A stretch of DNA of 64,000 nucleotides from positions 1 through 64,000 of the forward strand of contig JAIRKL010000004.1 of the NCBI GenBank assembly GCA_031260145.1, written 5' to 3'. Below, in pieces: positions 60,681-62,729 of this stretch; position 1 is the stretch's first letter; each line of letters opens with the position of its first letter. Source of the DNA: Mycoplasmataceae bacterium. Its GTDB lineage: Bacteria > Bacillota_I > Bacilli_A > Mycoplasmatales > Mycoplasmoidaceae. The notes beneath the pieces were generated by a model. That model ran no database searches. It was not told the DNA's origin and saw nothing but the letters and a program-made list of their open reading frames with translations. The position numbers and the translations under genes were made by a program.

Positions 60681-61355
60681 GTGAAAAAATTAATTTTTGT
60701 TTTTGATGTTGATTCAACAATCATAAAGATAGAATCATTAAATAATATTATTTCAAAAAATATTAAAAATGAAGATGAAATAAAAAGATTAAGTGAAATT
60801 TCTGCAAAAGCATTGAATGGTGAATATGATTATCATAAGGCTTTCTTAGAAAGATTTTATTTAACCAAATTAACAAAGGAAAATTTCATTAATGAAAATA
60901 AAATAATTGAAAAAAATTTGATTCATGGGATAAAGAGAATTATTAATTTTATTAAAAAACAAAAACATGAAATATTTTTGGTTTCCGGAGGATTTCGTAT
61001 TAACATTTTACATGTTGCTAAATTGCTTAAAATAATCCCTTCTAAAATTTTTAGTAATGATTTTTCAATTAATAAAAGTGATAATACTCTTTCTTTAATT
61101 GAAAGCTCTTTAATTTATGGAAATGGAAAAAGTATTATTTGCAAAAAAATTAAAGATATGTTCGAAAATCCAACACTAATAATGATAGGGGATGGAGTGA
61201 CTGATTTAGAAGTTTACAAAGAAAAAATAGCAGATGAATTCATTGGAGTAGGATATGTTGTTAGTCGTGAAAAAGTATTAAAAGAATCTAATTATTTTGC
61301 GAAAAATATCAATGAACTTAGAGACATTATTAAACAAATTATTTTAAAATATTAA
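60681..61355 (+). CDS. HAD phosphatase, SerB-like
   Basis: The 224-residue protein starts at GTG 60681. HAD motif I is FDVDSTIIKIES (both Asp present), motif II FLVSGGFRINIL, and motif IV IMIGDGVTDLEVYK; Lys of motif III is probably in GNGKSIICKK. The helical cap SEISAKALNGEYDYHKAFLE matches phosphoserine phosphatases (HAD-IB). Serine synthesis is rare in mollicutes, so it may act on another phosphomonoester. Its promoter carries an inverted repeat, so it may be regulated. The ligase gene follows 15 nt downstream. Confidence 0.8.
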   Translation: MKKLIFVFDVDSTIIKIESLNNIISKNIKNEDEIKRLSEISAKALNGEYDYHKAFLERFYLTKLTKENFINENKIIEKNLIHGIKRIINFIKKQKHEIFLVSGGFRINILHVAKLLKIIPSKIFSNDFSINKSDNTLSLIESSLIYGNGKSIICKKIKDMFENPTLIMIGDGVTDLEVYKEKIADEFIGVGYVVSREKVLKESNYFAKNINELRDIIKQIILKY

Positions 61356-61370
61356 AAATATAATAGGGTT

Positions 61371-62729
61371 ATGCTTAAAACTCAATTAGAATTTTTAAAA
61401 AAAATTGTTTTAGAACTTCAGGCTTCAAATTCAGTGATAGACAAAACCATGATTTTACAAAAATATCATGATTTAAATCCTGAATTTTTTGAAAAAATAT
61501 TTGACTATATATATTCATATGACAAAAAATATTGAATCACAAGTGATAATATTGAAAAAATGAAAAATACTTTTTCAAAGAATAAGTACGCCTTTTCTTT
61601 TGAAAATGATTTATTTGAAATCCTTAACCCATTAATTAATAGAGATATCACTGGACATAATGCAATTCATTATGTAATTGATTTTATTAATTTCATCGGG
61701 AAAGAATACGAAGAAATATTCTTCTTTATAATCAATAAAGATATTAAAGCAGGAACAAATGCTGCTTTAATTAATAAGGTTTCGCCAAATTCAGTAAAAG
61801 AATTCCATGTGTCATTAGCTCAAAGAAATGATGAAGCTCCCAAAGTACACGAAGTAAACTTTAACAATCAATCTTGAATGATTAGCCGAAAACTTGATGG
61901 TGTTCGTGTTATTTCTTATCTTAATGGAACGCAACCGATATTTTTTAGTAGAACTGGCACAATTTTTACAACACTTGGAAGGTTAAATGATGATGTGATA
62001 AATATTTTAAAAAAAGCAAAAGAAAAATTTAATGATGACTTCGTTCTTGATGGCGAATGTTGTTTAATTGATGAAAATGGCAAAGAAGATTTTAATGAAA
62101 TTATGAAACAAATTACAAGAAAAAATTTTACTATTATCAAACCAGTTTATATCCTTTTTGATTTAATAAGTAAAAAAGAATTTGATTCAAGAAAAGGAGA
62201 AACTATTTTCAAAGAAAGAATGAAAAAATTGGAAGAACTTGAAATTGAAAAAAAATGCAATTTTATTAAACTTGTTGAACATAAAAATGCAATAAATGAA
62301 ATAGACTATAAGGAATGAGTTGAAAAAAGCCAAACATCTCAATGAGAAGGGTTGATGTTGAGAGATGAAAACTCAATATATACCGGAAAAAGGAGTTTTG
62401 ACTTGCAAAAAATCAAAGCTTTTTATGATGCTGAATATGAGGTTATTGGAATTGAAATAGGTAATAAAAAAATGCTTGATATTAGTGGAGTTATGCAAAA
62501 CACTGAGTGCGTAAAAAGCTTAATAATTGAACATAAAAATACACACACTAATGTCGGAAGTGGTTTAAGTGATGAACAGCGTGTTGTCTGATTCAAAAAT
62601 CCAGAATTAATAATGAATAAAATCATCACCGTTCAATACTTTTCAGAATCTATAGATAGTAAAACAAATAAACCAAGTTTGCGCTTCCCAACTTTAAAAT
62701 TTGTTCATGGTGAAAAAAGAGAAGTTTAA
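61371..62729 (+). CDS. ATP-dependent DNA ligase, phage-like
   Basis: The 452-residue protein has the nucleotidyltransferase motifs of ATP-dependent ligases: motif I SRKLDGVRVIS with Lys 174 as the adenylated residue, FVLDGECCLID (motif III, Glu 229), YILFDLIS, EGLMLRDENS (motif IV, from 326) and LQKIKAF (motif V). The N-terminal region FFIINKDIKAGTNAALINKV resembles the DLxCGVxxxxINKV segment of T4-type phage ligases. The C-terminal OB fold follows (GSGLSDEQRVVW). Mollicutes normally use NAD-dependent LigA, so this may be a replacement or an addition. TATAAT ends 6 nt before the ATG. Confidence 0.88.

Follow-up and report, generated by a model that had tools for sequence, protein, structure and literature searches.

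The window, a stretch of 64,000 nucleotides, contains an open reading frame that raises the question of whether a phage-type, ATP-dependent DNA ligase can take the place of the NAD-dependent ligase LigA in a bacterium. LigA is required by practically every bacterium. Bacterial ATP-dependent ligases were described in a 2016 review as always additional to LigA (PMC5052709). In M. tuberculosis, the NAD-dependent ligase alone is reported to be essential, even when an ATP-dependent ligase was overproduced (PMC6155577). The results presented here make it very probable that, within an uncultured genus of Mycoplasmataceae, the function of the essential LigA passed in one lineage to a phage-derived ATP-dependent ligase. 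No report of LigA replacement in a natural bacterium was found among open-access titles and abstracts; subscription papers lay mostly outside this search and priority is therefore unproven.

The window encodes an intact ATP-dependent DNA ligase

The open reading frame at 61371-62729 starts with ATG, encodes 452 aa and is intact under genetic code 4, with five TGA codons read as Trp. The gene and the domains of its product are as follows.

61371..62729, + strand: ATP-dependent DNA ligase gene, T4/PHROG-114 type (open reading frame, profiles, motif residues)
61371..61790, + strand: predicted N-terminal all-helical DNA-binding domain, approximately residues 1-140 (helices H2-17 to H131-137, block pLDDT 85-96; aligned with the T4-type ligases 6dt1 and 6rar)
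61815..62420, + strand: nucleotidyltransferase domain, approximately residues 149-350, containing Lys174 (PF01068 at 158-349; invariant motif residues)
62421..62726, + strand: OB-fold domain, approximately residues 351-452 (PF14743 OB_2 below cut-off; strands in the model)

The Pfam profile PF01068 (ATP ligase domain) matched residues 158-349 with an E value of 1.2e-21, and PHROG 114, 'ATP-dependent DNA ligase', matched essentially the full length of the protein (residues 6-450, E 5e-65). DNA_ligase_OB_2 (PF14743) aligned with residues 373-442 at 27.4 bits, just under its cut-off of 28. Of the family models compared with the protein, only those of ATP ligases and related nucleotidyltransferases matched; there was no match to LigA, and the Pfam profile search found no LigA accessory domains. 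The initial annotation had reported all ATP-ligase motifs, with Lys174 in KLDGVR, and the alignment bears this out. This KxDG lysine (61890-61892) is unchanged in 19 of 19 aligned ligases, nine from the genus and ten from viral contigs. The other nucleotidyltransferase motif residues, R194, LDGE 226-229, D264, EG 326-327 and K347/K349, are likewise invariant. The identity of the protein as an ATP-dependent DNA ligase is thus confirmed, far beyond chance. Comparison of the G000 and G016 ligase genes gave differences of 0.27, 0.17 and 0.49 at codon positions 1, 2 and 3 (random, about 0.7), indicating that the protein is under constraint. Each of the nine host copies contains three to six in-frame TGA-Trp codons, while no in-frame stop codons were found in 13 of 13 viral ligase genes (the loci from the viral-contig scan with the nine-member alignment).

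An AlphaFold2 model built from 19 aligned sequences (pLDDT 90.8) displays a helical N-terminal domain, a nucleotidyltransferase domain and an OB fold, the domain names and their approximate limits being our own reading of the model. The best sequence matches in the PDB were three bacterial ATP-ligase chains (6rau, 6ras and 6rar), nearly full length and in the case of 6rau covering residues 8-449, followed by T4 ligase (6dt1) over residues 9-238. The top Foldseek matches, scored by query length, were 6rar (titled Pmar-Lig; TM 0.65) and T4 ligase 6dt1 (TM 0.64), with identities of 21-23%. The source of 6rar is Prochlorococcus marinus (PMC12121391). The T4-like character first noted for the N-terminal segment agrees with the alignment of the helical domain to 6dt1 and 6rar and with the presence of T4 ligase among the top structural matches. 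Collectively, the ligase is confidently predicted to be a three-domain, T4-like enzyme.

LigA and the ATP-dependent ligase exclude each other

The LigA model TIGR00575 had no match in the genome that contains the window (658 kb in 33 contigs, 79% complete). This absence is weak evidence alone because the metagenome-assembled genome (MAG) is 79% complete, and relatives were therefore compared. Among 36 genomes of the host genus, including its own, 26 had LigA only, nine had the ATP-dependent ligase only (G000, G002, G004, G008, G009, G012, G013, G016 and G028), none had both, and one, G030 (81% complete), had neither (Fisher exact test, p 1.1e-7). The 11 genomes that are at least 90% complete comprised eight with LigA only, three with the ATP-dependent ligase only and none with both (p 0.006). 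The nine ATP-ligase genomes are related, so that the exclusion represents one or two evolutionary events and the Fisher values overstate independence; kinship makes them optimistic with regard to independent events, not with regard to assembly gaps. All nine genomes are draft MAGs, 74-93% complete and none closed, and within the limits of draft status each has this gene as its only ligase, with no LigA and no second PF01068 match over the cut-off. Nor was a second ATP-dependent ligase found over the PF01068 cut-off in 95 genomes of the family. The suggestion that a viral ligase replaces LigA is therefore upheld by the distribution (9/9 ATP-ligase genomes without LigA, 26/26 LigA genomes without the ATP-dependent ligase), and by the tree described below with respect to viral origin.

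Across the whole order (320 genomes), the ATP-dependent ligase was found in nine genomes, every one in the host genus, and LigA in 304. The 16 genomes without a LigA match were the nine ATP-ligase genomes, G030, five g22 genomes and one g25 genome (G307, 64% complete). The five g22 genomes (G276, G279, G280, G281 and G283, of ten in all), of which G276 is 93% complete, had neither LigA nor the ATP-dependent ligase. No substitute was found in them by PF01068 or PHROG 114, the latter giving only weak matches in two LigA-bearing g22 genomes. LigA can therefore be undetected or missing for other reasons, and in g22 this reflects either a binning gap or a different ligase. Phytoplasmas are described as having an NAD-dependent ligase and no annotated ATP-dependent ligase (PMC3322544).

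These data bear on the strongest of the alternatives, that the ligase is an accessory extra and that LigA lies in the unassembled part of each MAG. The incompleteness of the window's own genome is compatible with this explanation, as is the failure to match LigA in half of the g22 genomes without any substitute. It requires, however, that LigA was missed in 9/9 ATP-ligase genomes when it was found in 26 of the 27 other genomes of the genus. The product of the nine missing fractions (1 - completeness) is ~2e-8, assuming independence, and three of the nine genomes are 91-93% complete. We consider this explanation improbable.

The ligA site and the species tree

We inspected the genes around ligA in 20 of the 26 LigA-bearing members of the host genus. 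In 14 of these 20, a gene that we take to be cysS lay within four genes of ligA, directly adjoining it in nine; this name and that of rlmB were assigned from the sequences. Among the ten LigA-less genomes of the genus, cysS was found in nine and not in G009. In none of these nine genomes, G030 and eight with the ATP-dependent ligase, was ligA present in the vicinity of cysS. G012 has kept the presumed rlmB-cysS pair without ligA, and an unrelated divergent gene occupies the place where ligA would be expected.

RpoB trees were calculated for 34 of the 36 genus genomes (G029 gave no match and G007 only a fragment); for the rooted tree, six further LigA rows were dropped and 11 of 12 outgroup genomes were used. 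Seven of the nine ATP-ligase genomes formed a clade with G030 (support 100). With the outgroup, all nine, together with G030 and the LigA-bearing G014, formed one clade (96), the order of G004, G012 and G014 being without resolution. G030 lies inside the ATP-ligase clade, and a missing stretch would therefore explain why it has neither ligase. Constraining the ATP-ligase genomes and G030 to group together was not rejected (p-AU 0.41 without the outgroup and a borderline 0.066 with it). The LigA of G014 fell among the genus' own LigAs in a tree of 20 of the 26 genus LigAs and eight others, which argues against its re-gain from elsewhere. The most economical scenario places G014 just outside a lineage that captured the ligase once and lost LigA once; an alternative history has a capture, a period with both genes and then separate losses. 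Several ATP-ligase genomes (G008, G004, G012, G013 and others) have long RpoB branches, the longest reaching 1.25 changes per column where the median is 0.18, which suggests that this lineage evolves fast. We infer the 'gut' habitat of these mycoplasmas from one relative, G016.

The ligase gene lies among chromosomal genes

The gene directly upstream of the ligase is a possible operon partner.

60681..61355, + strand: HAD phosphatase, SerB-like, separated from the ligase by 15 bases (TIGR01488, 71.6 against a cut-off of 45; SerB model below cut-off)

The neighbours in the window further include a MiaB-type radical SAM protein, an M20 peptidase, ribosomal protein L23 and a phosphoesterase, and rpoB is located on the same contig at 40777-44661. 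The ligase neighbours were scanned against family libraries in the window and in G028, G012 and G004. The ligase is beside Fpg, which follows Ffh, in G028; beside a 5'-3' exonuclease, with a Clp ATPase also among the neighbours, in G012; and two genes from a uracil-DNA glycosylase in G004. Fpg adjoins the ligase, or lies within some genes of it, in G002, G009 and G028. Sharing of other neighbours is partial (L23 in G000 and G016; the phosphoesterase and M20 peptidase in G000 and G008), and no fixed neighbourhood is common to all nine genomes. A scan of genome contigs for the ligase returned one locus only, that of G016. Two further features of the window were observed. The L23 (58260-59069) has a C-terminal extension of ~170 residues and lies between the M20 peptidase and the phosphoesterase, not among ribosomal genes, and the protein encoded at 62851-63348 matches DUF16 below the cut-off (27.4 bits, cut-off 40).

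The DNA-repair or DNA-processing genes beside or near the ligase in three genomes might point to an end-joining or repair enzyme of the LigD, LigB or LigC kind rather than a replicative one, and the 2016 review regards bacterial ATP-dependent ligases as non-essential enzymes without a replicative role (PMC5052709). Against this, Ku, the partner of the end-joining LigD, was absent from 36 of 36 genus genomes, the NHEJ ligase models scored far below cut-off (66.6 against 227.75), and no LigA remains to do the replicative work. A repair ligase is thus a very improbable explanation.

The ligase descends from viral sequences

Viral contigs (IMG/VR) were scanned for relatives. The nine-member host alignment identified 13 loci, and with viral members added at least 595 relatives were found, the best 80 at 36-41% identity. 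A scan of 395 genomes sampled from the class, among them the one that contains the window, found besides the window ligase only three distant partial matches (E values between 1e-21 and 6e-24; reading frames of 771-783 aa). The ligase tree was calculated from the host ligases, 39 of the best 80 viral loci, ten of the 13 first-scan loci (three duplicates were left out) and nine named references (L249 was not used); 19 of these 67 rows, more than 75% identical to others, were dropped, leaving 48. The nine host ligases formed one clade (SH-aLRT 96) nested among viral-contig sequences (98, 99). Placement among long-standing bacterial ligases, which would have spoken against the initial annotation, did not result. 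Several independent captures are not needed, as the host ligases form one clade.

Some of the viral loci have phage-family genes near the ligase, namely thymidylate synthase, nicotinamide phosphoribosyltransferase and RNA ligase (8/10 proteins matched). On one viral contig near the host clade (L182:1804-5676), the ligase is followed by a nicotinamide phosphoribosyltransferase and a cytidyltransferase/Nudix protein, a gene set that suggests NAD salvage. Some bacterial ATP-dependent ligases are described as prophage-derived (PMC8455567), and ATP- and NAD-dependent ligases are described as complementary among jumbo phages (PMC7824862).

As the nearest relatives are in viral contigs, the ligase could reside in a prophage or other mobile element and serve phage replication. 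We find this scarcely credible, since the neighbours in the window, G028, G012 and G004 are chromosomal housekeeping genes and the host copies are one clade whose identity to the window protein extends down to 43%. With housekeeping neighbours and no Ku, the ligase is explained neither by a prophage nor by end joining. That the replicative work is done by a further ligase that escapes recognition, or by one from a host cell, as G030 and the g22 genomes with neither ligase might suggest, is hardly believable either, since PF01068 exceeds its cut-off only at this gene in the ATP-ligase genomes and viability is explained without anything further.

A proposed model for the replacement of LigA

In the preferred explanation, replacement of LigA by a phage ligase, an ancestor would have acquired the gene from a lineage of large phages, after which LigA presumably became superfluous and disappeared. 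The viral ligase would since have been inherited vertically as the only recognisable DNA ligase left. Capture before loss is the order that we infer. Catalysis would begin with adenylation of Lys174 by ATP and transfer of the AMP to the nick's 5'-phosphate. The nick would then be sealed with the DNA enclosed by the helical N-terminal domain, the nucleotidyltransferase domain and the OB domain. The cellular tasks of the enzyme would be the joining of Okazaki fragments and the completion of repair; both the use of ATP and the replicative role are suggested by the absence of any other ligase.

Seven of the nine host ligases start with the pattern QLx[FY][LF] (window 61371-61400), which was seen after the fact. 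None of the 48 viral relatives checked (48 of the best 80 loci) starts in this way. The pattern resembles a bacterial sliding-clamp-binding peptide. One ancestral substitution could give rise to it, and in the AlphaFold2 model the peptide lies within a helix. A fuller reading, in which the sole replicative ligase is viral, ATP-dependent and also refitted to the bacterial replisome through this clamp-like N-terminal peptide, is tentative and on balance doubtful. If it is true, these symbionts would join their DNA independently of NAD, and this step would be intrinsically resistant to LigA inhibitors.

On the preferred explanation, a component of bacterial replication that is regarded as fixed seems exchangeable, with a phage enzyme standing in for a core one. 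The lineage makes directly testable why other bacteria keep LigA, and the replacement is relevant to the standing of LigA as a broad antibacterial target.

Comparison with known ligases

T4 ligase (6dt1) and the Prochlorococcus marinus ligase (6rar) are the best fold matches to the window ligase, yet have low identity to it (21-23%). T4 ligase serves phage T4 itself, and P. marinus has LigA besides its ATP-dependent ligase. Bacterial LigA (TIGR00575) has in common with the window ligase its presumed role as the cell's only ligase but differs in cofactor family, being reliant on NAD and having other accessory domains. Lig E and LigD share the nucleotidyltransferase and OB core, and LigD goes with Ku. 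Lig E is described as minimal, with a leader peptide (PMC8455567), whereas the window ligase has 452 aa and an N-terminal helical domain. The PHROG 114 phage ligases and those of IMG/VR contigs (e.g. L162, L182 and L148) match over the full length with a like three-domain layout by alignment, the nearest having ~36-44% identity to the window ligase and all motif residues being present in the ten aligned. These ligases come from viral contigs and some of them have phage metabolism genes alongside, whereas the window ligase is chromosomal, reads TGA as Trp and stands in the place of LigA. The enzyme is thus of a known kind, and what is new is its position as the sole ligase of a bacterium.
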